This document shows, in pieces, positions 10,802-44,472 of a stretch of 64,000 bases of DNA. Source of the stretch: Macrocystis pyrifera (taxonomy: Eukaryota; Sar; Phaeophyceae; Laminariales; Laminariaceae); the NCBI GenBank assembly GCA_031763025.1, contig JASSKH010000002.1, positions 17,768,468 to 17,832,467 of the forward strand, written 5' to 3'. The notes beneath the pieces were generated by a model. That model was not told the origin of the DNA. It saw only the letters and a program-made list of their open reading frames with translations, and did no database searches. The position numbers were made by a program, and so were the translations under genes. How positions within the stretch are numbered: the first letter of the stretch is position 1; each line of letters starts with the position of its first letter.

Positions 10802-11057
10802 TGTTCGTAGAGTCCAAGCCTGGATGCCCTGACCACCACGTGGTCTGATGAGTTTCTTTATAATCGTTGTATTAGAGGACAGAGGAGAGGAGAGAGAGCG
10901 GAGCCTAGCTCGTAGCTCGGAGCAGAGAACGGAGCAGAGAACGGAGTGCTCAAACTCTCCTCGTGAACACACGGCATAATTCATAATAACGCCTGCGAAG
11001 ATATACGCAACCCTCTACAACTTGTAACCGTCGCTGCTGGAACGATCCAAACGAACA
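10802..11057 (-). repeat. 3' LTR of copia-1
   Basis: 256 bp, TGTTCG...CGAACA. One base differs from the 5' LTR (GGAGAGGAG versus GGAGGGGAG). The stretch 11058-11371 next to it is the 3' untranslated part of the element and holds the PPT. Confidence 0.95.
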
Positions 11058-11371
11058 CCCTCCCTGGCTCTTCACAGCAGTGACGAGACCGAAAAGACAT
11101 TCAAGACTTGCTAGGACCTAAGAACAGCCAACGACAGTCCCGCAGGAGGAAACCCGGCCACCGGGTCAAAACCCCCTGTATAACACATATACTCCAAACC
11201 ATTGCAATTGAAACAACGGCCGCATTCCAAACGATGACCATGGCCAGAAAATAAAATGTCAAGCGGTGCCCTACTCCCCCATGCCCCTCAAAGTAGCGCA
11301 GGGTTGGCGACCTGACAAATTATTCCTCGCATCACTCAAACGTGGTACTCATCGAATAATGCTCATACCCC

Positions 11372-11581
11372 TCAGTCACCCTCCAAAGGCAGATTCAACA
11401 AGAACCTACGATGAGACTTAAAAGGGGTCGCAGCAAGGGATTTCGTCAAAATATCCGCGTGCTGCTCTTCCGAAGCTACGAACTGAATGTCGATCTTCTT
11501 AGCACGAAGTAGCTCTCTGACAAAATGAAAACGCACGTCGATATGCTTACTCCGAGCAGAACTAAGAGGGTTTTCAGCCAA
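11372..11581 (-). pseudogene. Copia-1 RNase H C-terminal tail
   Basis: The last 69 codons of the copia pol frame, reading AENPLSSARSKHIDVRFHF and HADILTKSLA, the usual end of copia RNase H. It is out of frame with 11584-13566 because one C is missing in a C run near 11592; copia-2 keeps the extra base at 44011. The fragment is a broken tail and has no start of its own. Confidence 0.9.
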
Positions 11582-11583
11582 CG

Positions 11584-13566: not shown

Positions 13567-14660
13567 CCCCCCCCACCACCTCGATCCGACGTGCTCACGT
13601 CGTCTGCCTCTGACCCCCCCTTTTCCGTAGACAGGGAGTCATTCGCCTGGGCAGGTACAGGTGGTGCAGGCGACACGCGTTGCCAGGTGACATTGCGCGT
13701 TATTAGCACAGTGCGGTTCTTTGTCAGCACTCGTACTGAATCACCGGGGTAGTTTGTTGCAGGGCCGAGGTAAAAGCACTCTTGCGCTTTCGCCTGTGAC
13801 TTGTTTTCCCTCTTCACCTTGCAATAACCAGGCTTGAGGAAGGGCAGTAGTACTACCGGGGGGGGGCTACCATGCCACATCTCATGTGGCGACTTGCTCT
13901 GCGGGTTAGCTGTTGTTGCTGTGCGGTTCAAGGCGTCACACGCCCAGTGGGACGCTTCCGCCCACAACGACGGCGTGGCCGGGGGTTTCGCGCCAGGAAA
14001 AAGCTCTTGAGCCTGGATTCGGCCCGCCATTGCGGCCGTCTCTATCAAACCTAGCGCGCGCTCTGCTACTCCATTGTATTGGGGACTGTCGGCCGTCGTG
14101 AATTCCTGCTTGATCCCTCGTGATCTACACAGGTCGCCAAACTTTCCCCCGCGGAATTCACCACCCCCATCAGATCGGACGATTACCACCGTAGAAGGGA
14201 CACCGTCTGCACGAGAATCCGCAAGGAACAGCTCGAACATTTCCGCGGCGTCCGACTTGTGGCGCATAAAGTACACCCACGTATACGGTGAAAAATCGTC
14301 GCGCACGATGAGAGTATACCGCTTCCGCCCGAGAGACTCTACCACCTTTGGTCCACTCAAATCCACAAAAACCCTCCCGAGCTTCTTATCTGCTCGTGTG
14401 TGTGGACTGCTTGATACCTTTGCGGAGACCCTTTGCCATGGAGCACCCTTTGCACTCCAGCAGCTTTCCCTCGAGGACAATCCCTTGCTGCTCCGCGGTC
14501 TTGCGAAGTAGTACCTCGTGGGAGTGTCCAGCAGCGCCGTGGAAATCGTTGATGTTGATTGCAGACTTGTTGGGCAGTTGTCCCGGGGCGAGTACAGCAC
14601 AGGCATTTTCCCCACAACTGCGGTCGACCCGGTAGCCGTATAGGCTGTAGAGAGTCCCAC
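13560..14660 (-). pseudogene. Copia-1 integrase core
   Basis: The catalytic core of a copia integrase: the first Asp in VFVDLSGPK, the second in VRSDGGGEFRG and the Glu in NGVAERALGLIE, giving a complete DDE triad. After it come the copia-typical HEMWHGSPP and CFYLGP. The useful frame starts near 14400, where the CA-rich run PHTRADKK shows a frameshift against the upstream gag-protease frame; codons before that are a shadow. It ends in a polyglycine run at 13560, the second frameshift. The enzyme inserts element cDNA into the genome. Confidence 0.92.
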
Positions 14661-16578
14661 TCAACGGGAACACGATCGAACGCTCCGACTTGAGCCTGAT
14701 TACAACCCCCGTGGGGCACCCTTCGAAAGTATGGCCGTTTTTGACCAGAGTGGGCAGGGAAAATAAGTGGTAGCGGAGATCCGGCACGTGCGCAACGTTC
14801 GTAAGCAGCACTTGCACGGGACCGTTTCCGGACCGAAAGACAACACTCACGTCACCGTAACCTTCGATCGCTCGGGTGGATCCGTCAGCGATTCGGAGAG
14901 TCAAGTTGCATTCTCTATAATTGATCATGCAGTCAGCGGAGGGCGTCATGTGGGTAGACGCACCACTATCACATATCCAAGCCTCGTCTCCTACCTGCCA
15001 AGCAGACTCCCCTTCCCCCGAACCATCGCTCCACTTGCCTGTCTCTTCGGCCTTGAAAGCTGAGGCCTGGACCGTACCTTTTTCCGGGTCGTCGTCCCTT
15101 GCCCCATCCTTACTCGTCACCGCCATGACAGCTTCTTCTTTCGATGACGGGCAGACATCAGCAGCGTGCCCCAGCCCGTTGCATCGACTGCATCGATCCG
15201 TGGACATGGGACAGGCATCGGCAGAGTGCCCGCGTCCCTGGCATCGACTGCATAGCTTCGCCGTACACTCGCTCCTCCAATGGCCCTTCTTGCCACACCT
15301 ATGGCACTTGCCCACTGGAGTACTTCCGCTGGCGGCTTTGGCGTCGTTACCATTGCCACCAGCAGCCGCGGCCGAGCCACCACCGTCCTCGTTGGAACCT
15401 CTACCGCCTCGTCCGTGGCCCCGTCGTCCACCTTTTTCTTTGCTATTTCCTCCGCCTTTCCGGCGACCACCACCGCCGCCGCCGCCGGCGTACATAGCAT
15501 GGCCTGCGTGGCCAGCGTTGGACCCCTTCTTCCTGTTTCCAGAAAGTCGGTGATGCCGTTCTCGAACAGCCTTGATGATGTCATCACGGCCGATGCTGTC
15601 ACGTGATGCCAGGTTCCGAGCCTCCACTTCGTATTCGGCAGGCAGAGCGTCAATAAATATGGTGTACAGCATGTGGTCGTCTACTGACATTCCTGCTGTT
15701 CGCATTTCCGCGGCAAGATCCTCGATCCTGCCCATCTCCTCGAGCGGGTTGCTCCCCGGCGCCATCTTAAAACTGTTAAGGCGTCGGGAGAGGTCTGATT
15801 TGGCCCCCGTCGTCTGAGGGCCGTACCACGCAAGGAGAGCGTCCCACGCTTGCCTCGGAGAGGTACACCGGTGCAAAATGCTTTTATCGCTCTTGCTCTT
15901 GAGGGCCGTCGACAGGAAATTCCATGCCAGTGTATGCCTGTGCACACTTTCGCGGCTAAACCCCCTAGCGACAAGCATCGAGTTTTCGGTGTCTAATTCC
16001 CCTACGGGAATGTACTGTGGTGGATCCGACACGAAAGCAGACAAGAAACCAACTCCTTTGGCGTAATACCGAGCGTCTCTTGTCCAGGGGTTGAACTCAG
16101 ATTTTAGCCCACTAAACGATGGCACAGGAGTGTGTTTGAAGGCCAAATGGTGCGATAGAGGCAGATCAAATCCACCACCCAACTCACCGCCGGGGTATGC
16201 ACCCCTTCCTCCTGTCCTCCCGTGCTGATCTGGCTCACCCCTCGGTGGGCCAACCTCGACAGGCAACGCAGTTCCTCCGCGTCCAGTTGCTCCCAAATCT
16301 GGCGAGGCGCCCTCACGCAAATTTGTCTCTTCTTCTGCTGCAATCTCTCTTACAACAGTGGGTACTGCCCCTTGTGGGCTCTCCCCTACAGCAGCGCTAC
16401 TCACAGCGCTGCCGGACTCCGATCGGCCGTTGTTCCTCATGAACTCAGCCATCATGTCCCTCATGGCGTTCATCATCGACGCCTCTCTTTTCTCCATCGC
16501 CAGTTCGATCTCGCGTCGCAGCGTTTCAACGTCACTTGGAGAGTCGGGCTCTCCTTGAGCCGATCCCTTCGAGGGCAT
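14386..16578 (-). pseudogene. Copia-1 Gag, protease and integrase zinc domain
   Basis: 730 codons from ATG at 16578, shortly downstream of the 5' LTR. Residues about 1-130 are low-complexity. A UBN2-like Gag follows (PVPSFSGLKSEFNPWTRDAR, WDALLAWYG). A Gly/Arg-rich stretch leads to three CX2CX4HX4C zinc knuckles near residues 420-480 (CHRCGKKGHWRSEC, CSRCQGRGHSADAC, CSRCNGLGHAADVC). The aspartic protease motif ICDSGASTHM lies near 535. The integrase HHCC zinc finger (FHGAAGHSH ... CKGCSMAKG) comes last. Three knuckles are more than most copia Gags carry. The frame closes at a stop just after HTSR, where a CA microsatellite has slipped. Gag packages the RNA and the protease cuts the polyprotein. 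Confidence 0.93.
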
Positions 16579-16623
16579 CGTGGGCTTCTGGTACTAGACC
16601 TCAAACGTTCAAGTACACTAGTG

Positions 16624-16879
16624 TGTTCGTAGAGTCCAAGCCTGGATGCCCTGACCACCACGTGGTCTGATGAGTTTCTTTATAATCGTTGTATTAGAGG
16701 ACAGAGGAGGGGAGAGAGAGCGGAGCCTAGCTCGTAGCTCGGAGCAGAGAACGGAGCAGAGAACGGAGTGCTCAAACTCTCCTCGTGAACACACGGCATA
16801 ATTCATAATAACGCCTGCGAAGATATACGCAACCCTCTACAACTTGTAACCGTCGCTGCTGGAACGATCCAAACGAACA
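16624..16879 (-). repeat. 5' LTR of copia-1
   Basis: 256 bp, TGTTCG...CGAACA. In minus sense it lies upstream of the gag ATG at 16578 and should carry the promoter. It belongs to a slightly different LTR subfamily from copia-2. Confidence 0.95.
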
Positions 16880-17400: not shown

Positions 17401-18001
17401 GACGACATTCCAGCTTTTCTCGACGTTGCACAGTGTGTATATGGAACGATTGCTTGCAAGCTTTGGTACACACAAACTGAAGAGAAATAAATGTGCTGAA
17501 TGACAATTTTGTCAGAGGGCTTTGCATGCAGGGTGCGCAACAAACGATACGGACGTTTAGGTTGATCAACCTATTTTTTTTAAACGATTAAAAAAAATTA
17601 AACAATAAAATCTGCATGTCTTGACAACGGTGTGGTTGTGACAACAATGGTGCAGTATAACGGACTGCAGGTGCATGGTGAACGATACGACGAGAACATG
17701 TCTCCTCAGTCGGACAAGGCATCATCGACTTTTTGAGCAAGTACATGTTTGCGATTCAGTGAAAACACTGGAATCGACTTATATCGAGTTGATAGTACGA
17801 ACTATCTATACAGTTGACGATCTGTACAAGAGACATTCTTGCAGTCATTGACGATTGACTGCAGACAGTGTACTCATAAATATGTAGTAAAACAAGCGGG
17901 GACTCATAATGTGCCCGAGGATATATGACTTTGGATTGTGCAGGTCACGCGCACCGCTGCCTCTCCTCAGTCAATTCCAACGGAACGATTCCGACACTAG
18001 A
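17401..18001 (-). other. Gypsy A 3' non-coding region
   Basis: AT-rich, no convincing ORF. It belongs to the untranslated tail of gypsy A between the palindromic array and the gypsy B insertion. The last five bases, CTAGA (17997-18001), are the left TSD of gypsy B. Confidence 0.6.
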
Positions 18002-18673
18002 TGTGATGTGGGAGAGCAGTAAGGGTTCCAAGGGATGATGATCCACAGAAGAAGTGTGACACAGGTGTCTGTGCTTGGTCAAACTCAGACCTAGTTCTTA
18101 TTGGAGTTCTCGTATTTTATTGGTGATAAGCTTGCTCAAAAGGGGCAAGTGAGAAGAGTGAGAAGGGAGGGGGGGGGAAGCAGATGCTTTTTGAAGCCAG
18201 AAGTATCATCTGGCTTCAACCGGCTATAATCTACTGGCAAGGGTGCATGCTATATCCTCAACTTCAATAGTGCAATACCCCTTAAGGGTGCATGCGTTAC
18301 CCTCGACTTCAACAGTACAACACCTCGTAGAACCTGACGAACATACCACGTGCGTACATCTCTGTCTCCTCGGCTACTCAGATGCTAGTCTGCGTATCAT
18401 GTCCGCGAATACAAATATCTTAATCCAAACGGGATACGTACGTGTACGAGGAATACTAGCACTGCGTACCGGATACTACAACTACGAAATATCTTATTCC
18501 AGACGGTAGAAGGGATACGTGTACGGAAGAATACTAACCTGCGCACCGGTATTACAAATACAAGATATCTTATTCCAGACGGTAAAAGGAATGAGATCCA
18601 ATTACTAGAATAATATCTAACGGTCCCTACTGCTGGTTGGTCTATATACTATAAAGCAGGGTACTCTATCACA
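18002..18673 (-). repeat. 3' LTR of gypsy B
   Basis: 672 bp, TGTGATGTGG...TCTATCACA. It contains a G9 run at about 18170 and a short inverted repeat, GAAGCCAGAAGTATCATCTG / GGCTTC. Confidence 0.93.
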
Positions 18674-19573
18674 TTAGCCCACCTTGAATAGCCGTAGATG
18701 CAGATCCCACGACGATACAGAAATGGCTAATTAAGACATTAGAAATTCGGAAGAGGGGGTCGAAGATACTGCTATTCAAAACAAACGACAACCCAATGAG
18801 ACCATAGACCAACCCACACCTCGTAAATGAGGCTAAGACGCCTCTGGTAGGCAGCATTCGTGCTAGAGAAGGAAAACGTGAAGGAAACGAAAGAACAACG
18901 ACAGAAAAGGATGTCGGCCGTGGTAGAATACGAGAAACGCCGAAGGGGTGGTCGGCTACTGTAGGCCCGATAGAAAAAAAAAAATCGTGGCTATCCGCGT
19001 TGTAGGCCTATGAGAAAGGCGGGAGAGATCGAGCAAGGTAAGGCACGAACTAGGAAGCTAATGGAAAAGCCGGCAATAGACTTGATGCGGGACTAAGTCC
19101 ACATGGAGCCAGGGCGAGAAGGACACAACAAGGTCCCTAACTAGGTGTTTTTACCAAAACAAAAAGAAAAACGAAGAAAAGGAACAAAGAAGAAAGGAAA
19201 GAAAGAAAAGAAAAAGAACGAGAGACAACAAGGAAGAAAAAAAGAAGAAAGAAGGAAAATAGAAAGACCAGAAGACCGAAAGACCACCCCTAAGGAAATG
19301 CACAAAGGAGGTGCAACAGAAAGGTATACCCTGGAGGTACAATAACACTTTTTGTTGCGAATTGCGTCCTAGTGAAGCAAACGGAACGTGGGGTGCTAGA
19401 TGGAATCAACACACAAGGCGAACGCGTGTCCCAGACAGCGAACGCACTGAACATCCCGGCCCGAAACTAGTATACGTCAATCTAACGCATCCGCCGACCA
19501 TCAGATACGGTTAATTGGTCGGGCGGATGAGTGGTGGGGGGGGGTGCATTTGCATTTCGTAGTACTCCGCGTG
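18674..19573 (-). other. Gypsy B 3' untranslated region with purine tract
   Basis: No domain is recognisable between the integrase stop and the LTR. On the plus strand 19156-19275 is a strongly asymmetric A/G tract (AAAGAAGAAAGG-type), pyrimidine-only on the element's sense strand. The sequence next to 18673 gives the PPT. Confidence 0.6.
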
Positions 19574-20731
19574 CTAGTCCTCCGGCCTGATGACGCTGAA
19601 GGCACCAGGATCCTTGAGTCGCGTTCCGTGAAGTGGTGTAGAGGGACGGAAGGAGTGTGATCTTGATCGGGCCCGGGTCGTCGAGGAAGCGGACGATGTA
19701 GGAGTGAGTGGAGGAGGTGTCGGTCGAGGCGCGTGGGGCAACTTTGCCCAACCACCAGAGACCATCGCGGGCCTTGTACCAGAGGTGTGCCCCGGCAGGT
19801 AGAGGTGAAGAGCTGAAACGGTGAAGCCAGAGGGTGCGTGGTACGAGGCTGTACCAGGGGGCGAGGAAGATTTCACCCCGGGACCGCGAAAGTTCACGGT
19901 GAGCGGCCCCGATGCGCATCTGGCGGTATAAAAACGGTTGGTCTGGCGGTGCTGTGAAGGGGTGCCCGACCAATAGCGGAGGATGTGGGATCGGTGGAGC
20001 TGTAGGTCTCGTCCGTGTTCCCAAGAAGGGCTAATGAGTCCGGCCCAGTGTGTTTCGTACATAACGGCGAGAACGCCTCCCCGGCCATGAACGAGTTGGT
20101 GTCCCGAGATCTGATCGACCTCGAGGCGTTCGGGCGGTGGAGAGATGTCGTCGAAGGTGACGTGGAAGGGCGGGGACTTGGTGGAGAAGGAGCTGAGCAC
20201 GTACTTAGTTAGGTCGGCCGGTAGGTGTTTGGGGAGATCGTCGATGTCGTCGGGGTTCCGGCAGGGCTTGCAGCGGAGAACGGAGACGCGGTGCTTGGAG
20301 TCCCGCCCCGGCATGTCCGAGGGAAGGTCGAAGTAAAGGAGCTTGTCGTGAAGGGGCCGTCCATCCGGAACGGCTGAGGCTGGTGCTGGGCCCACGGCAA
20401 GAATCTTGAACGGGCCAATCCAGTTGAAGGAGAGTTTGGTCTTGAGAACGGTGGCGTCGGTGCCTTTCTTGGCGCCCTGGCGAATAGTGGCAGCGGTGTT
20501 GTAGATCCATGCCCAACCGCCGACAGAGAACGGAGGGGAAAGGCGGAGGGCGTCCATGATGGGGGCGTTCCGGCGGTCGAGGCGTGAGACGTAGACCGCG
20601 TGGAGTTCCCGGACGGCGCGGTAGGCGCGTTGCTGACGACCAGTAGCGAGGTCAATGTAAGCGAGCTGGTCCCGGTTGAGGCTTTGATGTTCCGGTGGCG
20701 GCGCTGACGGAGTTGTTGTAGGCGCTTTCAA
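19574..20731 (-). pseudogene. Gypsy B integrase C-terminus with chromodomain
   Basis: 385 codons, in a frame shifted from the integrase core at about 20700. The region NRDQLAYIDLATGRQQRAYR and then LSFNWIGPFKILAVGP is the C-terminal GPY/F module of gypsy integrases. Residues about 200-255 read as a chromodomain: a hydrophobic start (LEVDQISGHQ), a central strand (AVMYETHWAGL), the hallmark Trp-Glu (PSWEHGRDL) and a closing helix (SHILRYW). Such domains bind modified histones and steer integration into heterochromatin. The last 130 residues are Pro/Ser-rich without a known fold. Confidence 0.85.
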
Positions 20732-21443
20732 TGTGAGGAAGATGCAAATCCCAATCGTTTTGTAGTTCGTTGCCGACCATGGCGAGCATCAAGGCCATGG
20801 TGTGATTGACGCGTTCGACGCCGCCGTTGGTGCAGGGGTGGTAGGAACTCGTGGAGATTTTGTTAATGCCGAGGCGTTCGTAGAGGGCGCGGGAGAGTTT
20901 GGCGCAGAATTGAAGGCCGTTGTCGGAAAGGAGAGTGACGGGGCATCCCCAGAGAGGGATGTAGAGATCGACGAGGATGTCGGCCGTGCCGGATGCTGTG
21001 AACTCGGCTTCGGTAGTGGCGTACATGTCGGCGCGGCGGCTGAAACGGTCGGTGAAAAGCAGGATGTAGGCGTTGCCCCGAGGCGTGATGGGTAAGGGCC
21101 CGAAATAGTCGACGCTGACGAGTATACCGGGGCCGTTAGGTAGCGGCAGGGAGAGGGTGGGCCAACGAATTGTTTGGCGCGAAGACTTTCGCGCCTGACA
21201 CTTGAGGCAGCGGCGGAGCCACCAGCGGGTGGAGATGTCCATGCCGATCCACCAGTAGAACCGCATAAGCATGCTGAGTGTCCGAGAAACACCCAGGTGG
21301 CAAGAGGTGGTGGAGTGGCAAGTGTGTAGGACCCACGGTCGCATCAACATTGGGACGTAAATGCGAGGTGGCGATGTGAGAGGATCTATGGTCACATGAC
21401 TACGGTCATGCATGATATCGGGTACATCCCTCCTATCGAGTAC

Positions 21444-21485
<42 letters not shown>

Positions 21486-21590
21486 CCCACATGAGCAACC
21501 GTCTGTACTCTTGTGGGAGAACTTGCATGATATCGATGGAGTCGCCAGAAGAATCGTTTCCCCACAAACACGAAGTCGCCTGCACAACAT
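20652..21590 (-). pseudogene. Gypsy B integrase zinc finger and catalytic core
   Basis: 312 codons. After a polyglycine run coded by the 40-base C tract come the HHCC finger (HTCHSTTSCHLG ... RRCLKCQARK) and the DDE core: Asp in SVDYFGPLP, Asp in LLSDNGLQFC, Glu in CTNGGVERVNH. All catalytic residues are present. The frame is lost near 20700 and the domain goes on in 19574-20731. ORF starts upstream of the G run are arbitrary. Confidence 0.9.
21445..21484. repeat. Uninterrupted run of 40 C
   Basis: Forty consecutive cytosines on the plus strand; the gypsy B sense strand reads polyguanine (polyglycine) just before the integrase zinc finger. The true length may be uncertain because such runs are hard to sequence. 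Confidence 0.9.
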
Positions 21591-21841
21591 CGACGCCTGT
21601 TAACCCGACCTGCGCAAGGCAAGGGCGGACAGATTCCAACCGGTGGTGTCATCAGGGATCAAAACCAGAGATACGCGAACAAATGGAGGAACGAAGATCC
21701 TCAGTACTTGCACAAACCAGAGGGGTAGGCAGGGAAGACACCACCCACTCACCCGTTCATCGTGGCTTCGCTTGCTCTAGTGCTCCGTCTGCACAGCAAA
21801 CAGCCTTGATCGTCTCCTTTTTCGTCTAAAACGTCTAAGTC

Positions 21842-22976
21842 TCACCTGCAGAGGTCGCCCGGTGGTGGTGAAGGTGAGCCCAAGGAAATATATCGTATGG
21901 TAGCTGAGCAAAGGGGTTCGGTGCGTTGTTCGCGCGCCCAATCGGTGGAGGTATAACGCTCAACGCAGGAACTAAGGTGTGGGTCGTCAGCAGACCGGAC
22001 AACGGGTTCAGGTAGTGGGAGTGGTTGAGTAGGGGAGGGCGGGGGAGAAGGCCCTGGGGCGGTGGACTGTGGTGGTGGCAGGGACACTGGTGGCGTAGCC
22101 GTCGCTGGTGAGGGCGAGTCTTGAGCGGCGCCGCGACGGGCTGCATCCGGTCGCCGAGGCAGTGGCCTGGGTGCGACGGCAGGTGGACGGCGGTGGGTTG
22201 GTGGAGGTCTTGAGACTGCCGCAGTTGACGATCGACGGCCAAATCCGTAGTCCGTTGGAGTAAGGGGGGTCCCTGCAGCAGCGGCAGAACGGTGACGGGT
22301 CCGAGAAGAAATTAGGCTTGACGAGGTACGAGGAGTGGCCGAAGGTGAGACGCCCAAGGTGGGCGATGGGGAGACGAAGGGTGGCCTGAAAGCCACACCA
22401 GCAGGAGCGCCAGCGGTCACGGCGGCTTTCTCGGAGCTGGAAGGCATGTCGGCGATGGAGTCGAGGATAGAGAGATGACCGACGAAGGCGCTGCGAAGCG
22501 AGTTGACGGTGGGGTCTTGGGCAAGGCGGGGGCCGGCGGGAAGGCTGCGAGGCGGTCCGGCGGCGGGGTCTTGAGCAAGGCGGGGGCCGGCGGGAGGGCT
22601 GCGAGGCGGTCCAGCGGCGGGATCTTGAGCAAGGCGGGGGGCGGCGGGAGGGCTGCGAGGCGGTCCAGCGGCGGGATCTTGAGCAAGGCGGGGGCCGGCG
22701 GGAAGGCTGCGGGGCGGTCCAGCGGCGGGATCTTGAGCAAGGCGGAGGCCGGCGGGAGGGCTGCGAGGCGGTCCAGCGGCGGGATCTTGAGCAAAGCGGG
22801 GGCCGGCGGGAGGGCTGCGAGGCGGTCCAGCGGCGGGATCTTGGGCAAAACGGGGGCCGGCGGGAAGGCTGCGAGGCGATCCAGCGGCAGTGTCTTGAAC
22901 GGCGGTGAAAGTCACAGTAGAGCAGGGGGTAAGAACCAAGTCCGAGTTGTTCATACGTGGTCCGTGTCGGCGGAAA
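21842..22976 (-). pseudogene. Gypsy B linker between RNase H and integrase
   Basis: The part of the 21842-23569 frame that lies downstream of RNase H (upstream codons overlap RT-RNase H in another frame). It is very rich in Pro, Ala and Ser and includes an 18-residue repeat (AQDPAAGPPRSPPAGPRF type) at about 22510-22900, followed by more Pro/Ser/Thr sequence. It has no catalytic motif and probably acts as a flexible spacer. The end (ERYTSTDWAREQ) is separated from integrase by a frameshift. Confidence 0.6.
22510..22900 (-). repeat. 54-bp coding minisatellite in gypsy B
   Basis: About seven tandem copies of a 54-bp unit (GGCGGGATCTTGAGCAAGGC core). The period is a multiple of three and keeps frame, adding 18 residues per unit. 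Confidence 0.9.
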
Positions 22977-24386
22977 TCACCAAAGTCGTTTTCGGTGCAG
23001 GGGTGGTGGGATAGTGTCGTAGGGAGCGGTTGAGGGTGGGACAAGCCCACCCAAACCGATGCCCGGGGTGAAGGGGTTGATCGGAGTAAAACCGCAGGCT
23101 TGGAGAAGGTAGATACCTTTGGTGTCGGGAGGGGTGAGGCGGTTGGGTCCGGTGCGGTCGAGATCGGTCGCTGGTTGTGGAAGTCGCGACAGGAAGTCGG
23201 CATTACCATTAGCTGAACCTTTCCGATACTCCAAGGTGTAGGAGTAGCCGGAGAGGAATTCCAGCCAGCGTTGGACGCGAGCGTTGTGTTCACCGACTTT
23301 AGTGATACTCTCAAGTGCCTTGTGGTCAGAGTAGATGTGGAACTTGGTGGACCAGAGGTGGCCGCGGAGGCGTTTGATGGCCCAAACGATGCTACCGGCT
23401 TCGAGGTCGAGGGGGGTCCAGGATCGTTTGTTGTCGAGAGTGGTGCGGCTGATAAAGACGATGGGACGGACGGAACCGTCGAGTTGTTCTTGTTCGAGAG
23501 TCGCGCCAAAGCCGTCGATGCTGGCGTCGCAGTAGAGGCGAAAAGGTCGGGAGTTGTCGGCAACGGCATCCCAGTCTGGGTTTACCAAGACCGGAGGGGT
23601 AGCAAGTTCGTGGAGGATCTGGCGAACGATAGTTTCCATTTCCGGCGTGAAAACGAACTTAACACCTTGTTTGAGCAGGGCGTTAATGGGTCGGAGCCGA
23701 GTGGAGAGATTCTTCAGGAATTTACGGTAGTATCCTATGCCTCCGAGGAGTGAGCGCACTTGCTTGGTGTTCGTAGGCATGGGCATCTGAGTTAGGGCGG
23801 CAACCTTGTCGGCGTTAGGGCTAGCGCCGGAGGAGGAAATGGTGTGTCCTAAAAAGTCGGCGCTGGTAGCGCCAAGCTTGGCTTTAGACGGGGATAGCTT
23901 GAGGTTGTGTTTTCGAAGGCGTTCGAAAAGGGAGCGGATATTGGCGACGTGGGCCGCAGGGTCGGGATCGAAAACTATGACGTCGTCGAGGTAGGTCGCT
24001 ACGCGGTCAAGGTCTTTGATGACCTCGTTGATGACCTTGACAAACCAGCCGGGCGCGGCGCTGCTGCCTTGGGGCATGACGAGCCACTCGAAGAGTCGGG
24101 TGGGCGTGCAGAAGGCGGTCAGGGGTATGGTGTCGTTGTCGATGGTGATTTGGTGGAACGAAGACACGAGATCGAACAGAGAGAAGATACGGCCTTTACC
24201 GAGGGAGTCGAGAACCTCGTCGACGCGGGGGATGGGCAGTTGGCCCAGGGAGCTGATGGCATTAAGCTTTTTGTAGTTCACGGTTATCCGAACATTGCCG
24301 TCTTTCTTGGGAATGGCGACCATAGGGCTGGCGTACGGGGAAGTGGAGTGTTGGATCAGACCGGCAGCCAGATATTGGTCGAGCAC
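22977..24386 (-). pseudogene. Gypsy B reverse transcriptase and RNase H
   Basis: 469 codons covering most of an RVT_1 RT: SPYASPMVAIPKKDGNVRIT, NYKKLN, LFDLVSSFHQI, MPQGSSAAPGWF and the active-site YLDDVIVF near residue 130. The thumb follows (FLGHTISSSGASPN, GGIGYYRKFL). RNase H starts near 285 (LYCDASIDGFGATL), with Glu in LDLEAGSIVWAIK and Asp in IYSDHKALE, and the RTgag-style end NGNADFLSRLPQP. The N-terminal edge of RT lies in the upstream frame (24262-27000) after a frameshift around 24400-24560. Catalytic residues are intact. Confidence 0.93.
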
Positions 24387-27000
24387 AGCGTCGGCCTTTT
24401 TGGCGAGGATAGGGTTGATGCGGTAAGGGCGGGAAAAGACGGGGGCGCTGTCCGGGGGGATGGAAATCTTGAACGGAATAAGGGAGCACGAGCCGAAGTC
24501 GGTTTTGGACGTGGAAAAAAACGTCGGGAAACTCGCACAGAACGTCCCCCAGAGCTGTGATGACCGAGGGGGACCAACCAGAACCGCGGAGGTCGAAGGA
24601 GATTTCGCGGAGGTGTAGCGGAAGTCGGTCCCAGAGGCGGAGGAAGCTTGTCCGTTGGTCGGCAGTTAGGCGTTCCAGGAGTTTGGGGCAAGGGGTCTTG
24701 GGGGGATCCGCGGGGGGTGTACCGTCGTCATGCACGGGGATGTTGTCGTGCAGGGCGTGAACGTCGTGTACAGCTGACGCTGGAGGTGACGTTGCGGGGA
24801 GACCTTGCAGTGCTGAGACCGGAATTTGTATGAGGGGAGAGGAGGAAGTCCCCAGAAGGTCGCCTGGTTCGAGATCAATGAATCCCGAGAGCGGGATGCT
24901 TTGGTAGCCGTTGGCGACGAAGATTTCGGTTTCGGAGTCAAGGCCGTCGCGGGGAAGCATGTCAACGAGGTAGTGGCCGGTGGGTGCCGGAATGCCGGAG
25001 GGACGCACCAGATTTACCTGGACGAGAGACGGCGTAGCCGAAAGTGCGATTGCGTGAGCGCCGGCGAACTCGAGGTGTAGGGTGTCGGGAGAAGGTCGGT
25101 GGTCGTGGATGAAAGTGGAGAGACCATGCTTGTAAGAAGTGGTTAGGGAGAGCTCGCCAAAGAGCGGTCGCGAGGGGAGGCGAGGCAGGGTTACGTACGT
25201 GCGTTGTTCGAACCGCATCCAGCTATCTCGTCCCAGTAGAACGGGGTGTTGCATAGTCCCATGTGGCACTATGCACGCCCATACGGCGAGCTCGGCGGAG
25301 GGAGTGTTGTCGTGTAAGAACTGGATGCTGAGTCGGACGGAAATCGAAGTGAGGAGCGGAACGGATTTACCAAAGCCGCCCCAGGAACGAGGAGCATCGT
25401 GTCGTTCGCATATGTCCGACGCAGCGTTGTTGTGCTTCATACGAGCCCAAGCTTCAGCGGAGATGAAGGTCTGGGGGGAGCCGGTGTCCAAGAGAGCTAC
25501 AAGGCCGTAGCGGTTGGATGCGGAGGGTCCACTGTGTACTCTGATCCTGGTCGTGAAGGAGGCGTCGTCGATGGTAACGATACCGCTCGAGAGGCCTCGC
25601 CCGTGTTCGGCAATGAGGGAGGGGAGCGCGGAAGGGAGAGCAGCTCCGGACGAAATGGCAGAGACCAATGCGTGCGGAGGAGTGGCCTCAGGAAGGAAAG
25701 GGGGCAGTAGGTGATCCAGCGTGGAGTGCGGTGTAGAAGCTGGAACGGTTGCGCTGATCTCATGGATCCCATTTTCGGAGGGTGAAACGCGAGAGACGCG
25801 GGGGGCGGGTGGGAGTAGAGGGGGGGAGGCAAGCTGGTGGCGGATCTTCATGAGGATGTCGCCCAACAAGTTGAGTCCCGGCCAGTGTGGAGGTTGTAAG
25901 GCTCGCGTATCGTTACACCTGAAGCCTATGCTCCAGACGAGGTCGTAAGGACTTGCTTCGGCGAGGAACTTGTCGCCGGTGTCTACGAGTTGTTGTAGTA
26001 AAGGGGGAGCCGAAAACTTGGCGAGGTTGCCCTTGAAAACGATGTCGTACCGATGTTGTGCCCAAAGCTCTTGATTAAAATTGGAGACCGAGCGGCCGAG
26101 GCGTTTTTGTTGTGCGGGATTCGGAGAGGACATGATCATCCGGCGAGCTGCTGTGTCGCCGAAAAGCTTGGCCTTTTCCGACATCATGTACTGTTCCGCA
26201 CAGTTGTAGTGCTCGTTATCTACGGTGAACGTCGAAGGATACCACTGGGAAAAAACCGAGGAATTATCCCAAAAAACAAGAATTTGGGAGGGGCTCAGGG
26301 TCGAGGGGAGTGGAGAGGGGGACGTTGTGTGGGACGTTGTCGGGGAAGGCGTGGGTGAGACGACTTCGCTCCCCGAAAACATGTGGGGTAAGGTCGATTG
26401 TGACGAGGCCCCGGGAGGATGTACGTGACGGCGAGACGCTCGTGACAGAGCACCCTGGGAGTCCCTGCTAACAGCATTTAACGTATGCGGAGGAGGGAAT
26501 AACTCGGAAGAATATGCGGTGCCTGTAGTAGTCCGTGACCGGGGTGTGGGTGTCGGTACAGGTGGCTCCTGGCATAATCTTGGTGACTTGGTCGAGTCTT
26601 CCGCGGGTGAATCCGCGGGAAAACCGTCCCTTGGGCCCAGGGAGAGTGGTGTGGTCAGCACGGGGCGGGCAGCTACGAGTCCAGGAGATCCTGCAGAACC
26701 AACGGAGGTCGAAGTATGTGCTGTCCGAGATCGACGGACGCCGGTTGACGTGTGCCGATAACATCGTTCGTCAGAGGACGTAGATGAGTTGGGAGTCGAT
26801 GGCCCTGGGGGAGGAGCAGAGCCGGAGAGGGAGTGGATACCGCTGTTGGCCGTTGTTGTCGTGTCGCCCACAAGATTGGCAAGATCCGCAGACATTTCGG
26901 CAATGTTGGGCAAGGCGCGGCGTCGCGCATCGACTGGGGACACCGAGGGGAGCGTTGAGGGAGTGCTCGGTGTGCTCGCCTCCTCCTGCCCACACCTCAA
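24262..27000 (-). pseudogene. Gypsy B NADAR domain plus aspartic protease
   Basis: 912 codons. Residues about 1-235 are Ser/Thr/Pro-rich. Residues about 240-390 form a NADAR (YbiA/DUF1768-like) domain, described separately. A second Pro/Ser stretch leads to a retropepsin with LLDTGSPQTFIS near residue 502 and VLLGRDSW about 110 residues later. The tail (TADQRTSFLRLWDRLPLHL) matches the region before RT in element C (DDQRAAFVKLWQRVPPHL), showing that the two families are related. The final 60 or so codons are out of frame. Known gypsy proteases lie directly after gag, so the NADAR domain is inserted between gag and protease. Confidence 0.85.
25830..26285 (-). other. NADAR (YbiA-like, DUF1768) domain inside gypsy B
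   Basis: About 150 residues with the family signature throughout: ILVFWDNSSVFSQWYPSTFT at the start, then NCAEQYMMSEKAKLFGD, ARRMIMSSPNPAQQKRLGR, IVFKGNLAKFSA, FLAEASPYDLVWSIGF and the closing PGLNLLGDILMKIR. The Glu of AEQYMM, the Lys of SEKAKLF, the EASPYD segment and the WSIG Trp are the usual conserved positions. Family members act on ADP-ribose-related N-glycosidic bonds; bacterial NADARs remove ADP-ribose from guanine in DNA, and YbiA acts in riboflavin intermediate turnover. What it does in a retrotransposon is unknown. It is free of stops although the flanking gag is broken repeatedly. Confidence 0.85.
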
Positions 27001-27213
27001 ACCAACCGCTTGAACAAGGGAGCCAACCCTAGATCGAGGGGTTGATATTGAAGATAGGTTAGAAGGGGGAGGGAAAGAGGGGGAGGGGTCGGGAGAGTAA
27101 GTAGAGCCGGCGGCTCCTAAACAATACGCTGCCCGAGGGTCCAGAGAGGTACCTGGCGCGGTCGCGTGTAGTGCCGCTGGTGAAGTCGCGAGCGGTTCTT
27201 CACCATCGGCTGG

Positions 27214-28074
27214 TCAGTTAGTACGGAAGGTGCCCGGTTGCCGGGAGTTTTGATTGCCTCCGTGTTGTGAAGGACCGAGGCGCATGTTAGCTGGGGTAGT
27301 GGGGATCTGGGTTGTGGGACCGGTTACGGTGAGGGCAAAGGAGGGAGGTCCTTGAGGGGAGGGGGGGGTGAGCTGTGGTGCCGAGTTATCCCGGGAGTGG
27401 TGGTTGTTGGGAGAGTAGTTTGTCCACTGAGAGCCTGCAGTACGGTTGGAGTTGCCGTGGGAGCGCTCGTTTTTAAAATGGGAGTTGGACCGGCGGTTGT
27501 TATTGGAATTGCCGGCAGAGTTGTGTCCCCTCGAGTTGAAACGCTTGGAGTAAGAGTTCGAGTTCCGATGGGCATGGCGTTCGTACTGTCCCCGACGGTA
27601 TGAAAGCATACGTTGTTGCCACCGTTGAAAAGCGTAGCCTCCGTCGTTGAGCTGGCCAAGCCGGGGATTGAGCACACCTGACTTGTTTATGAAGGGACTC
27701 TGACACGTCTTTACGCTGTGGTCCTGTCCGCCACAGTTGAGGCATACGCCACGCCAAGTGCGAAGAGCAGTCGCTCTAGCAGTAGCGCCAAGAAGAGGAC
27801 TCCAGAGGGGGGGGTCGGTGGTCGAAAACGTGGTAGATACCATGTACACTTCGTCGAAGTGTTCGAGAGGCCAGTGGTTGTAACCCAGAGTGAAAGGGTC
27901 AATGTCTGGGGACGTAGAGACGTTCATGACATAGGGGTTGCGTTGGGAGCCTTGTTGGTTTGGGTTGGAATGATTGCGCGAACGCGTCTGCTGAGCAGGG
28001 GCCGATGACGGCGGGGACGACGAAAACGTCGTGTGGCCTCCTGGGGAGGTATAAGAAAAATATTTTTTCGCCAT
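27214..28074 (-). pseudogene. Gypsy B Gag C-terminus with zinc knuckle
   Basis: 286 codons. The knuckle CLNCGGQDHSVKTC (CX2CX4HX4C) lies near residue 113, followed by a basic segment with RWQQRMLSYRRGQYE. The last 120 residues are Asn/Ser/Arg-rich. Element C has the same knuckle followed by a matching RRWQQRLCQWHANRRE, so the two Gags are homologous. Knuckles bind element RNA for packaging. A frameshift separates it from 27899-28498. Confidence 0.88.
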
Positions 28075-28498
28075 TTATGGCAGGTGTATTATTCGTAGCG
28101 TACACTTCATGAGCCTGCCAAATGGCCGAGACCGAAGGGAAAGGTTCTACCGCAGTCATCAATTCACCCGGGTACAAAACCGGAGTCAAAGCAGGAAACT
28201 GTCTACTAACACTGGTACGCACTACCTCTAATACCATGGCGTCGCTAGGCTTAAAGACCTTTTCAGAACCTTGTACAACCGCTGTCAACTCCCTCAAAGC
28301 CCGCAAATAAATTGAATACACCGTGCCCGTTGGTACTCCGAACGCTTGAAGCTTCTCGAATGCGCGGCCTTGGTCGCCGTGGTCGAAGTGCGTGCTCAGC
28401 AGACGCAAGAGTAGGCGAAAGGCAGACGGGCCGGCATTGTCCTTTTCCCGAAGGTGATCGCGCACCTGCTTAAAAACGTTGTTGATAAGGAGGGACAT
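27899..28498 (-). pseudogene. Gypsy B Gag capsid-like segment
   Basis: 199 codons with little low complexity, such as FKQVRDHLREKDNAGPSAFR and AFEKLQAFGVPTGTVYSIYL, which looks like the helical capsid part of a gypsy Gag (retrotrans_gag type). This is inferred from its place immediately before the zinc knuckle. It overlaps the next frame, showing one frameshift at each end. Confidence 0.65.
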
Positions 28499-29261
28499 CG
28501 GGGAGTTGGTGCCTGTCTTGATGGCTTTCCGGAAACACCGGAAGAAGCGGGGTGATCCATCCTGGTGACCAACGCAGAGAGTCTAGAGTACCGTTCGGGG
28601 AGTCGTCACAGCGTGAGAGAATGTCCGCTAAGACAAGTTTGGCGCTAGCTATGAGTTGTTGAACTCCTACACAGTCGTCGGTTCCCGCAGGAAAAGGGAG
28701 TGGGTCGATGAGCTCCAATTTTCGAGAGTCCAAGTCAATGTACTTGCGGTTGACCTCAAAGTCGTGGGTACTAGGTGCAGTGATTTGGGGCGTAGTGGGA
28801 GTTGCGGCAGGGGGGGCCGGTGCGGGAGTGGAGGTGGCCGGAGTGTAGGTGGGTGCGACTGGGTGTTGGGGGAGTACCGATGTAGTGGGAGTCGTGCTGT
28901 TTGGGAGAGGTGTTGGAGCCTGTACTGGCGCAATGGGGGTTGCGAGACCGGGCGTCGTAGGAAGCGGAGGGGCTTGGACTGCAACAGAGGTTGCATGGGC
29001 GGGAAGATGGGTGAGGGTCGCTGGGAACAGTGGAGGTAGTGGTGAGGGAGCTACGTGATACTGTGGAGGTAGCGATGTGGTGGGGGGTGCGGTATTAGAG
29101 AGAGGAGTGCTTATTTGTAGTGGCGCATTTGGCTGATACTGACCCAACGGTGGGGCAGTAGAGATTGTAGCGCTGGTTAGGGGGGGGGGGGGGTTGGTGC
29201 CGGGGCGGTAACGGCGTATCCGAAAGGTCGGTTGCCGCAAAACAAACAGATAGCGGAGCAA
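28470..29261 (-). pseudogene. Gypsy B Gag proline-rich segment
   Basis: 263 codons, about 150 of them Pro/Thr/Ala/Ser low complexity, then a more ordinary stretch (FEVNRKYIDLDSRKLELID) leading into the capsid-like part. No known domain. Confidence 0.55.
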
Positions 29262-29676
29262 TATCGTGATCGGTCACTTGCCTGTTGTCTCCGGAGATGT
29301 AGTCTTCGTCGGTTGACGAGGAGAAATAGTCGCCAACACTGTGCTTTCGTGGGCGTTGTTCAGGCCGAGGGGAAGGTCCGCTGTTTCTGGACCGGGGGCG
29401 TGTGGTCGAACTGGACGATGACGCGCGGCGGGCCGGGATGTCGGAGGTGCGGCTGTTGTGGTTGTTGTCGTTGCCATCGCGATCATGGTCGTCGTCCGGG
29501 CGCCTGCGGGTGACCGGTAGACGGCCGTCCGAGCAACCCATCGCCCGCTGTTGGCGCTGACCGCGGGAGGCGTTATATTCTGCCACGGTCGGCCAAGTGT
29601 GGTCGTATGTGGAGTGAAAAGCCCTCAAGATGGTGACCAATCTGAGTAGTTTGACACGCACGACGTCGTCGGTCAC
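29095..29676 (-). pseudogene. Gypsy B Gag segment
   Basis: 193 codons starting TDDVVRVKLLRLVTILRAFH, then an Arg/Ser/Asp-rich part (TRRRPDDDHDRDGNDNNHNS) that looks like an intrinsically disordered, charged linker. It is joined to 29673-30509 and 28470-29261 only through frameshifts, so it is a fragment of one longer Gag. Confidence 0.5.
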
Positions 29677-30509
29677 ATTAGGTAGAGATTCCAGGGCGTG
29701 CCGGAGGGTGGTTGAGGCGGTAGAATGATAGAACCCTTTGATGGCGGAGGCAGCCGACGAGATGGCTGCCCGTCTGTCCTCTGGGACATGGTGTGACGGT
29801 GTGACGAGATTAATTGGCGTATGGAAACGTGTAAAAACGCGACGTCAGAAAACTCCAAGACAAACCCCAGCGGGGCAAGGTTTCTCGTGGGAGAAGTGGG
29901 GGGAGGCGGTGTGGCGGGAGCTGAAGAGTCGGCCGGGGGAGTAGGGCCGATGCTGGGAGTCGAGGCAGCGGTCGAAACCGCGCGGAAGGGAGTGGGATCG
30001 AGGCCTTGAGAGGCCAGAGTTAGGGCATGTTTGGCCCTTAGTGAGGCCACCAGTTTCTCGGCGCGGTCGATCTCGTCCCGCTCCCTCGCCTGTCGCTCCT
30101 GTAGGAGCCTCGAAAGGCGCGCTTCACGCCTGGCGCGTTGCACATTGTTGTCTTCGAGCCACGCCTGTAGTTCCGAGATGGACGGCTCGTCCTCCGCAGG
30201 TGTTGTTGTTGCGGCGGGAGGCGCAGCTGACGTGGTGTCGGCCGAGGCCGGGGGTCGCTCTGGAGAGGGAGTGGCGAGGGAGTTTTCCGAGGTGAGGAGT
30301 GTCGGAGCAGGGGGGGCTGTTGCGGTGGCTACCGGGGTAGAGGGTGAGTTGTCCATGTCGTTTGTGTGAATGCCGTCATCCTCATCACCGGAGGACTCCG
30401 GCCCAAAGTCCACGCCATCCTCTTCATCTTTCACGTTTACCATTGTTGCTGTTGGCAGAAGCCGACGACAAGGGAGCGAAGGGAGGGAAGGAGGGAGGGG
30501 AGGGAACAT
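29673..30509 (-). pseudogene. Gypsy B Gag N-terminal coiled-coil segment
   Basis: 278 codons; an in-frame ATG (MVNVKDEEDGVDFGPE) about 22 residues in is the more likely start. An acidic N-terminus is followed by Pro/Ala/Thr-rich sequence and then a strongly charged helix (SELQAWLEDNNVQRARREAR and onward through RLLQERQARERDEIDRAEKL), which should form a coiled coil for Gag multimerisation. It overlaps 30424-31356 in another frame. Confidence 0.6.
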
Positions 30510-31356
30510 GTGTGAGCCCTAAGAGATCGTGCCATGTGGCGTAGCGAGCGGGGTGTGGGGGGGGGGGGGGGGGGGGGGGCTTGGGGGTGCTGTTATCCAT
30601 GTGCGAGCGAGTTTTATAGTGACCGGTCGCGGTGATGGAGTGTGTTCGTGTGCGCCCTCCGTCCGTCTGAGTGTACTGTAGACTCTTGTGGCGCTCTGGT
30701 TGGAGCCTAGTTATATTTGGGCTCAGGTGGCCCCGCTCGTGTCCCGTGGTGGAAGGAGATTTAGAGATACGACCTTTTAGACCCGTTTGAAGAGGAAGTG
30801 TAGAGACACTTCTGCGCACTTGACTGTAGTAACGGGGTGTAGAGACACTCCGTTTGTTCGCAACAGTATCTTGAATTTCTTGAACGACGCTGGCTGGCCC
30901 GGGGGTTTCGTACTGGGAGGGGTGTAAAAGGGACCCGTGCCCGGGCTGGTTTGGGAGGGCGGGAGTCGTATACCCGGGAGAGGAAGGGGAGGGAAAAACC
31001 GAAAAACAATAAAAAAGAATGCAAAAGTCCGGAGGAAGGTGGGCACGGGAAGGTGGTGTCCGTCGAACGGGTGGAAGAGGGTACCGTACCAACCATGTAC
31101 TTGACTCGCTTTGTGATTCGAAGACAAAACTCTCGGCAAAATCATCCTCCAATTGTTGACTCTGTGTCTGAAGACAGCTGTCGGTTGCTGTCAGATTCAG
31201 AGACCGAATAATTGTACTGGTATTCGCGTCTTCTACGTCGCGAAGTGTGTTAGTAGTCGTCAAAAGTTCCACTGAATTTTTATCCGGAAAAGAATTTCCA
31301 TCCGTACGGCTCAAAATTTCTCTCTCATCGCCGAAGGTTCCACTATATTCATCCAA
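30424..31356 (-). pseudogene. Gypsy B 5' ORF, second part
   Basis: 310 codons without a domain I recognise. It begins MDEYSGTFGDEREILSRTDG, is Ser/Thr-rich, and ends in a polyproline run coded by a 23-base G tract (30557-30579 on the plus strand). It may be the downstream part of the same reading unit as 32161-32964, joined through the 90-bp repeats, or leader sequence that is not translated. Confidence 0.4.
30557..30579. repeat. Run of 23 G
   Basis: Homopolymer of 23 guanines on the plus strand, read as polyproline on the element's sense strand. Confidence 0.9.
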
Positions 31357-31489
31357 AACTGTACAAGCGTGTACTTCTGGAAAAAAAAAATACGATTGTG
31401 CCTGTCCAAAACGAGTGGTGTAACGTTGAAAATTTCGTCATAGTTTTCCAAAGCTGCAAAAGTGTGCAAATCTGGAAAAAAATTACGAT

Positions 31490-32270
31490 TAGGACGGCTG
31501 GAATTTACGTAAGGTTCGTCGAAAAGTATATCACTCGGGGGGACCTGCGTGTTTCGGCAGATCTGAAAAAAAAATGCGATTACGACGGCTGGAATTTACG
31601 TATGTTTCGTCGAAAAGTACATCACTCGGGGGACCTGCGTGTTTTGGCATACCTGAAAAAAAAATGCGATTACGACGGCTGGAATTTACGTGTGTTTCGT
31701 CGAAAAGTACATCACTCGGGGGACTTGCATGTTTTGGCAAATCTGAAAAAAAATGCGGTTACGACGGCTGGAATTTACGTATGTTTCGTCGAAAAGTACA
31801 TCACTCGGGGGACCTGCGTGCTTTGGCATACCTGAAAAAAAAATGCGATTACGACGGCTGGAATTTACGTGTGTTTCGTCGAAAAGTACATCACTCGGGG
31901 GACTTGCATGTTTTGGCGAATCTGAAAAAAAAATGCGGTTACGACGACTAGAATTTACGTATGTTTCGTCAAAAAAAATCATAACTCAGGGGACCTGCGT
32001 ATTTTGGCAAATCTGAAAAAAAGTGCGATTAGGACGACTAGAATTTACGTATGCTTCGTCAAAAATTTCATCACTCAGGGGACCTGCGTATTTTGGCAGA
32101 TCTGAAAAAAAAATGCGATTAGGACGACTAGAATTTACGTATGTTTCGTCAAAAATTTCATCACTCAGGGGACCTGCGTATTTTGGCAGATCTGAAAAAA
32201 AAAATGCGATTAGGACGACTAGAATTTACGTATGTTTCGTCAAAAAATTCATCACTCAGAGGACCTGCGT
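31490..32270 (-). repeat. 90-bp tandem repeat in gypsy B leader
   Basis: Nine copies of an 89-91-bp unit containing GGAATTTACGTATGTTTCGT, CATCACTCGGGGGACCTGCG and an A7-A9 run. In minus sense a full unit codes for 30 residues (DETYVNSSRRNRIFFS core), but A-run length changes shift the frame between units. Left units (GACGGCTGG) and right units (GACGACTAG) form two subtypes. Confidence 0.9.
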
Positions 32271-32964
32271 CCAAAAATATACTCTCCTTGCGAAGTGAAA
32301 AGCAGAGAGAGTAGTATTTTGCGAAGGCGTCCGATGAGTCATCGGTGCAAAATATGCTCTCTAAAACGTCACGCTCGTGAGGTTCCACTAAGTTGGTGAG
32401 GGAGGCGGGGGCACTGCGTTCAGGGTTTTTCTGTGACGCGGTACGTACGAGGTCCAGATAATTTTCAAGCTCATCAGGGCTTAACGAAGACCAATGAACT
32501 GCGTGCTCTGTCTGAGGGAAATCGGACAAAAATGTAGCATCATCAAACTGTGCGTTGTCCAACTCATCATTCGTGGACGGAGCGACTACGTCCGTGGGTG
32601 GAAGCGGGTGAGGTAACTGCAACCTGTCCATTACACGCGCAAAATGACTATGGTGTGGAGAACGAGGTGCCGGGTGTTCGCAAAAAGTTTTATACAAGGC
32701 CTCATCGCGAGGATATGTTATATGAAAATCGTATGGGCTACAAGCGTCGGTCGGCTCTGTGGGGGTGTACGACTGAGATTTTTTTGTCTTCAGCCGTGAT
32801 AGTTGGTGTGAGTAAGCGTTTAACGCAGCGATAGTCGCTGTCGGTGTCGACATGAGCTTATTTGCATCAGCAACAGAGATGTGCTTTTCAGCGACGTCTG
32901 GTTCGTCGTCGAAATCCAAACTATAAATAGCTTCATGAAAAAGGATGATCTGAGGTGAGATCAC
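32161..32964 (-). pseudogene. Gypsy B 5' ORF, first part
   Basis: 267 codons, the first sizeable frame after the PBS. It has no recognised domain. It is acidic with DFDDEPDVAEKHISVADANK near the start and SSLSPDELENYLDLVRTASQ later, and it runs into the first 90-bp repeat unit before losing frame. Position suggests a Gag-like or accessory protein. The start codon is uncertain. Confidence 0.45.
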
Positions 32965-33292
32965 TACGGAAAGCTCGTCAGACCGGTCGACGATTAGAAA
33001 CGCGCGGACGCGAAGGCGGAAGTTATTGCACAGGCGCAGGCGTGCGCGCTACGGCGGTCATCGCTAGAAGCGGGCGCAACGCGCGCGTTGCGTTACGGTG
33101 CAGTGCTACCCAATGGAGAACACGAACGCTGGTAGAAAGACAAAGACAGAAAAAAAAAGGAAGAAAGACAAGGTACTCTAAAATGCAGTGACTCGACTCA
33201 TGCCAAAACAAAAAAAAGGAGGAAGGCTCACACCTAAAGGCAGAGGAAGGCTCGAAGAACAGGTCGAAGCGGTGGCCACGAGCAGAGATGTA

Positions 33293-33310
33293 GTCCTGCC
33301 GACGACGCCA
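33293..33310 (-). other. Primer-binding site of gypsy B (serine tRNA type)
   Basis: In minus sense TGGCGTCGTCGGCAGGAC starts two bases after the 5' LTR. Its complement, GTCCTGCCGACGACGCCA, looks like a tRNA 3' end with CCA and closely resembles eukaryotic tRNA-Ser (CCTGCCGACNACG). The same 18 bases are the PBS of element E at 42411. Confidence 0.85.
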
Positions 33311-33312
33311 AG

Positions 33313-33999
33313 TGTGATGTGGGAGAGCAGTAAGGGTTCCAAGGGATGATGATCCACAGAAGAAGTGTGACACAGGTGTCTGTGCTTGGTCAAACTCAGA
33401 CCTAGTTCTTATTGGAGTTCTCGTATTTTATTAGTGCGAAGCTTGCTCAAAAGGGGCAAGTGAGAAGAGTGAGAAGGGAGGGGGGGGGAAGCAGATGCTT
33501 TTTGAAGCCAGAAGTATCATCTGGCTTCAACCGGCTATAATCTACTGGCAAGGGTGCATGCTATAAGGGTGCATGCTATATCCTCAACTTCAATAGTGCA
33601 ACACCCCGTAAGGGTGCATGCGTTACCCTCGACTTCAACAGCGCAACACCTCGTAGAACCTGACGAACACACCACGTGCGTACATCTCTGTCTCCTCGGC
33701 TACTCAGATGCTAGTCTGCGTATCATGTCCGCGAATACAAATATCTTAATCCAAACGGGATACGTACGTGTACGAGGAATACTAGCACTGCGTACCGGAT
33801 ACTACAACTACGAAATATCTTATTCCAGACGGTAGAAGGGATACGTGTACGGAAGAATACTAACCTGCGCACCGGTATTACAAATACAAGATATCTTATT
33901 CCAGACGGTAAAAGGAATGAGATCCAATTACTAGAATAATATCTAACGGTCCCTACTGCTGGTTGGTCTATATACTATAAAGCAGGGTACTCTATCACA
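33313..33999 (-). repeat. 5' LTR of gypsy B
   Basis: 687 bp, 15 bp longer than its partner because AAGGGTGCATGCTAT is duplicated at about 33550-33580. Confidence 0.93.
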
Positions 34000-34004
34000 C
34001 TAGA

Positions 34005-44430: not shown

Positions 44431-44472
44431 GGTCGACAGCTACATCAAGCTGCCCACAGCCTCCCTGTACGG

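Follow-up and report, generated by a model that had tools for sequence, protein, structure and literature searches.

A NADAR domain at the head of Pol in a gypsy retrotransposon of Macrocystis pyrifera, and its possible role in countering host ADP-ribosylation

NADAR domains have been reported in one of the four gypsy retrotransposon lineages of Ectocarpus (Dinatale et al. 2025, Genome Biology, PMC12477816; this and the other published accounts are cited from the portions available to us). That is, judged by titles, the sole relevant study found on NADAR or YbiA in retrotransposons or transposable elements, and it describes the closest known counterpart of the element that is our subject: element B, a gypsy retrotransposon with a NADAR domain, in a 64,000-nucleotide stretch of the Macrocystis pyrifera genome (assembly GCA_031763025.1, contig JASSKH010000002.1, positions 17,768,468 to 17,832,467 of the forward strand; this whole stretch is the window, and all coordinates below are its own). 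The original prediction, a note drawn from the letters of the window, knew of no described NADAR-bearing gypsy lineage; the 2025 report overturns that. The kind is already known from Ectocarpus and the window adds a member to it. What is new here is another sublineage, evidence at the level of single residues, and a set of standalone brown-algal NADAR proteins that are a possible donor or descendant.

Two further settings are comparable. The Tx1 long interspersed nuclear elements (LINEs) of Crassostrea gigas are also retrotransposons with a NADAR of the YbiA family, but they are LINEs, and their domain is divergent and lies in another protein, ORF1 (PMC12477816); it is by description that they are set apart here. 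In nidoviruses, hepe-like viruses and picornaviruses a NADAR lies inside the polyprotein that also holds the viral polymerase (PMC9503650); these are RNA viruses, however, and they are likened to the window by description rather than by sequence. In a protein of the oyster Magallana gigas (P0003) a NADAR domain is fused to a protein kinase.

Element B carries a complete NADAR domain. A stop-to-stop open reading frame (ORF) of 983 amino acids on the minus strand (27213-24262) runs through a linker, the NADAR domain, a second linker and an aspartic protease, and then on towards the reverse transcriptase (RT). Residues 314-461 of this frame match Pfam NADAR (PF08719) with an E-value of 5.2e-44 and a score of 150.8 bits (cut-off 35.1), over positions 2-162 of the 163 in the profile; a chance match is ruled out by that E-value and coverage, and the family assignment made in the original prediction is borne out. 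The domain occupies 154 residues at 25831-26292 of the minus strand. The position first proposed for it, 25830..26285, is essentially right and had been given without a strand; translation of 25830-26285 on the plus strand is interrupted by stops. Along the element the order is the CCHC zinc knuckle of gag (27703-27744), NADAR, and then the protease motif LLDTGSPQTF (25465-25494), with NADAR and protease in one frame, which confirms, on the minus strand, the predicted place between knuckle and DTGS. A tblastn search of the 64-kb window found no second NADAR (best other E-value 0.64). A single stop (27214-27216) closes the zinc-knuckle frame and the NADAR-protease frame continues in the same register, so that gag-pol expression by read-through of this stop is possible.

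The domain is shared by relatives of element B. When the protease region served as query, with words taken from outside NADAR and with the 7993 candidates sharing most words scored, 39 relatives of the element B protease came up, and our own NADAR profile found the domain or part of it in 28 of them (including proteins that start inside NADAR and hold only its end). A one-off insertion, which the original prediction had named as the outcome that would undo it, is thereby ruled out. All 18 relatives with at least 230 residues before the protease possess the domain; among the 11 without a match, nine have their start within the protease itself or no more than 97 residues before it. A second search, with the NADAR region, was confined by a length rule to proteins of about 540-1720 residues and gave 24 proteins, nine of which align across both NADAR and protease. 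One relative, P0158, which is 1616 residues long, unites NADAR, protease, RT and RNase H and heads a cluster standing for 415 sequences; the cluster of P0149 stands for 89. In a tree of 19 RT rows (element A of the window was left out, its RT match being too short) element B nests with P0162 (its nearest relative, at 84% RT identity), P0177 and P0146, and this group joins P0147, the NADAR gypsy protein P0183 of Ectocarpus sp. CCAP 1310/34, P0174 and P0182 in a clade of eight with support 100/99. By its RT sequence, then, the window element belongs to the NADAR gypsy lineage, in a sublineage separate from that of the Ectocarpus member; Ectocarpus Gypsy-12_Ec32 and its kin were compared by description only. 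Element C of the window (56120-60260) had been offered as a related element that lacks the domain. Its three ORFs indeed give no match to Pfam NADAR, but the element is remote from the lineage by RT, and it was rejected as a control in the role of close sister.

The domain has been conserved about as well as the protease while the linkers around it have drifted. Between the window and the nine doubly aligned relatives mean protein identity is 47% in NADAR and 49% in the protease, as against 26% in the linker before NADAR and 17% in the one after it; among the nine relatives themselves the figures are 73%, 78%, 62% and 54%, respectively. NADAR and protease distances are closely correlated (r 0.94) across the 378 pairs formed by 28 sequences. 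This conservation at the protein level supports the view that NADAR has been kept by selection across gypsy elements. Residues of the ADP-ribose site point in the same direction. They were compared in 30 gypsy NADARs (the window and 29 proteins with at least 130 NADAR positions and a protease, many of them close kin and so not independent), with the positions and numbering of the Phytophthora nicotianae NADAR (PMC11543638) transferred through an alignment with its structure, 8bau, a chain offset of two being set by hand. Eight of the eleven site positions (E43, K50, K75, R79, W89, E125, D130 and W133) are kept in 28-30 of the 30, K50 in every one and E43 in 29. The Y84 position holds Phe in 27; R93 is split between Arg (13) and Cys (17); D86 is unconserved, as it is in 80 bacterial and archaeal rows. 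The position of E125 has Glu in 29, with one gap, and Glu there marks the YbiA type (PMC11125620). Because the residue is Glu, and not Asp or His, the sequence assigns the window NADAR to the YbiA subfamily. Its site residues E33, K40 and E112 (the last being the E125 equivalent) are encoded at 26194-26196, 26173-26175 and 25957-25959 of the minus strand. Structure prediction had been proposed as a check, and as far as the fold is concerned it came out as expected: the predicted model of the 154 residues (predicted local distance difference test, pLDDT, 96.6) has the YbiA fold and, in Foldseek, resembles the Phytophthora NADAR (8bau; E 1.2e-11, TM 0.91) and E. coli YbiA (2b3w; E 2.3e-7), with no other chain in the PDB matching at E 0.001 or below. 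These two share with the window NADAR the fold and the ADP-ribose site, but they have no retroelement parts and their identity with it in the Foldseek alignments is 29% and 26%.

The reading that we favour, with a little better than even confidence, is that element B is a dead copy from a gypsy lineage that belongs to brown algae or their close relatives and has, at the start of Pol, a NADAR of the YbiA subfamily, captured once and since selected as a counter-defence ADP-ribose N-glycosidase. The capture would probably have preceded the splitting of the present families, and purifying selection would since have held the domain as an active enzyme. Made with Pol and then packed into the particle, NADAR would there come upon the minus-strand cDNA as well as the genomic RNA, and would clear ADP-ribose from guanosines in the RNA or single-stranded cDNA of the element; left in place, that mark would stall reverse transcription. 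The enzyme would be the element's answer to a host ADP-ribosyltransferase. ZAP, a PARP-family protein, reportedly restricts human retrotransposition; it acts by another route than the model of an ADP-ribosylation eraser implies, and the parallel is a loose one. NADARs hydrolyse the ADP-ribose carried by guanosine bases in DNA (PMC11543638) and by guanosine in RNA, though not that on phosphate ends (PMC11833690). The proposed roles, erasing an ADP-ribose mark on RNA or cDNA and countering a PARP- or DarT-like defence, fit the residues that have been kept; the original prediction had put forward both, the former for cDNA. The NADARs of RNA-virus polyproteins have been interpreted as a means of opposing ADP-ribosylation by the host (PMC9503650), and by analogy this supports a counter-defence role.

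It is possible, though we think it distinctly less probable, that NADAR serves some other aspect of the element's biology, by acting on a small derivative of ADP-ribose or NAD, by processing an RNA intermediate (as Dinatale et al. suggest, PMC12477816), or by tethering the particle or the integration complex, through its ADP-ribose pocket, to ADP-ribosylated chromatin. NADARs do also act on small N-glycosides, riboflavin intermediates for example (PMC9503650), and chromatin targeting is a theme of the Ectocarpus elements, all four gypsy lineages of which have chromatin-reader domains (PMC12477816). In the window copy, by contrast, the C-terminal region of the integrase (19574-20788, minus strand), which matches relatives P0162 and P0182, showed no chromodomain and no Pfam family at E-values up to 10, though a diverged one is possible there. 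The retention of Glu at the E125 and E43 positions (29 of 30 in each case) and of the phosphate-binding Lys (30 of 30) also favours catalysis over mere binding.

Several points count against a single captured and active eraser. We know of no algal ADP-ribosyltransferase that is aimed at retroelements. The available portions of the Ectocarpus report state no enzyme activity for a gypsy NADAR (PMC12477816). Two of the protease relatives, P0150 and P0163, lack the end of NADAR in the stretch before the protease (123 and 154 residues long, respectively), through out-of-frame starts or through losses. The other points concern the single capture and come from comparing NADAR domains, 307 of which were extracted (one locus search kept 80 of its 293 loci); three trees were made, from 94 domains thinned by identity and caps, from 58 chosen by hand, and from 54 that exclude P0145, P0153, P0154 and P0105, the RT place of these four being unknown. 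The trees are poorly resolved, with 46 of 90 inner branches open in the first and 21 of 55 in the second. In the 58-row tree one group (85/91), which sits amid myxobacterial and planctomycete sequences, contains four standalone brown-algal proteins together with 13 of the 16 gypsy rows; the window, with P0105, and P0145 stand apart from those 13. The chief difficulty is that the window and P0145 are 71% identical in the protease core and only 50% in NADAR, which hints at an exchange or at fast change in one of the two. The ratio of NADAR to protease distance is likewise 1.20 for pairs that include the window and 0.93 for other deep pairs. Finally, one of eleven clade tests (p values uncorrected; P0013 and P0105 counted as gypsy) rejected the grouping that it held, a group of eight guessed from likeness of RT and protease (p 0.033).

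These discrepancies are what one would see if the same site had acquired or swapped its NADAR on more than one occasion, so that either the window sublineage or P0145 had a NADAR different from that of the rest. We consider that improbable. The other ten tests do not reject the groupings held: all gypsy NADARs as one clade give p 0.694, 0.093 and 0.413 in the three data sets, gypsy together with the algal standalone NADARs 0.737, 0.191 and 0.469, and gypsy with the myxobacterial and planctomycete rows 0.696; the clade defined by RT, with only rows of known RT place, is accepted at p 0.497. With 94 rows the held trees even outscored the free quick tree, so the free search was evidently incomplete. 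Faster change in one branch would account for the oddities that remain. A single capture is the simplest reading of the sequences, and an unproved one.

As to the donor, Dinatale et al. infer a bacterial source, the blastp matches outside Ectocarpus being almost exclusively bacterial (PMC12477816). The brown-algal standalone family is another candidate source, or may instead descend from the gypsy domain. Its members, P0056 of Ectocarpus fasciculatus, P0066 of Ectocarpus sp. 13 AM-2016, P0103 of Pylaiella littoralis and P0134 of Scytosiphon promiscuus, have NADAR domains 48-54% identical to that of the window among the matches listed (120 of 6181). They differ from the element's protein in being 227-252 residues long and in a common Cys/His-rich start, an N-terminal module that matches no Pfam family; Pfam detects no RT in them and they have no match to the element B protease. 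The donor may also be viral: 77 viral NADAR loci were found, and the 58-row tree covers just part of them, placing nine, all outside the branch that holds every gypsy row (95/96). Among viral contigs, 35 pattern matches to a combination of NADAR and protease yielded no confirmed case. A bolder picture, in which the particle carries an active guanosine de-ADP-ribosylase and the algal standalone NADARs, with their zinc-finger-like starts, are its donor or a copy retaken by the host, so that both sides share the enzyme, strikes us as doubtful.

That the domain was captured by chance and is a passive hitch-hiker, seemingly kept only because copies are young, is hardly credible. The window copy alone, with 8 differing sites out of 672 and one gap between its long terminal repeats (LTRs), proves nothing about selection, but active-site residues stay while linkers diverge among families so distant that about half of their protease sites differ.

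Element B itself is 15,998 bp from LTR to LTR (18002-33999) and, like all features of it given here, is read on the minus strand. Its 5' LTR (33313-33999, 687 bp) and 3' LTR (18002-18673, 672 bp) both run from TG to CA; their alignment contains 664 matched positions, 8 mismatches and a single gap of 15 bp, and the 5-bp duplication CTAGA flanks it at 17997-18001 and 34000-34004; from the LTR alignment and the identical flanks the element is complete from end to end and fairly young. A likely primer binding site, picked out by inspection, lies just inside the 5' LTR (33288-33312) and resembles what we take to be the 3' end of tRNA-Ser; ARAGORN finds no tRNA in the window. The 5' part contains a 90-bp tandem array of about nine copies (31434-32270). 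Gag is represented by a capsid-like part (27899-28582), recognized by position and look only, and, in another frame, by a 3' part with the zinc knuckle (27214-28074); neither has a Pfam match. The protease core (25144-25596) rests on the DTGS motif and its conservation in relatives, Pfam giving no protease match. RT (23838-24314; RVT_1, 4.8e-28) and RNase H (23244-23558; RT_RNaseH, 8.3e-29) share a frame (22977-24665) that differs from the NADAR-protease frame. Between RNase H and integrase is a tandem array with a 54-bp (18-residue) unit (22436-22952). The integrase (20652-21599) has H2C2 and rve matches (Pfam, 9.8e-14 and 2.2e-09) and resembles that of Ty3 Gag-Pol in the PDB (7q5b, E 8.8e-28). 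With its LTRs, target duplication and order of protease, RT, RNase H and integrase the element has the features of a Ty3/Gypsy LTR retrotransposon.

This copy looks dead: its pol changes frame five times (near 24.5, 22.55, 21.4-21.8, 20.69 and 19.93 kb, from tblastn pieces of P0158 and P0162), whereas P0158 and P0162 are each one continuous protein. Gag, judged by ORFs, is spread over more than one frame, and the NADAR-protease part is unbroken, which agrees with the earlier remark that the domain stayed readable while gag around it decayed. As evidence that remark carries little weight. One gap in about 1.36 kb of LTR leads us to expect some two indels in 3 kb, so that finding none is no great surprise. 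An inserted copy of an element is not itself under selection, and the intact frame is not read as selection on the window copy.

The rest of the window holds other repeats. A Copia element at 43225-51335 has 256-bp LTRs (43225-43480 and 51080-51335) that are 100% identical, which marks it as a very recent insertion; both of its flanks (42787-43224 and 51335-51545) recur uninterrupted, at about 95% identity, at 61833-62470, an empty-site copy of the target repeat. The interior of this Copia contains a long array of 72-bp tandem repeats that starts at about 45.6 kb (62 of 64 register matches), and another Copia element (10801-16879) has just two 72-bp register matches, near 13.2 kb. At 326-8591 there is a satellite-like array whose unit is about 205 bp long.

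If the gypsy NADAR is active, retrotransposons carry an eraser of ADP-ribose, as has been proposed for some RNA viruses and phages, and its presence would imply that the algal host marks the nucleic acid of retroelements. The abundant families with continuous Pol make a role for NADAR testable in a model brown alga.
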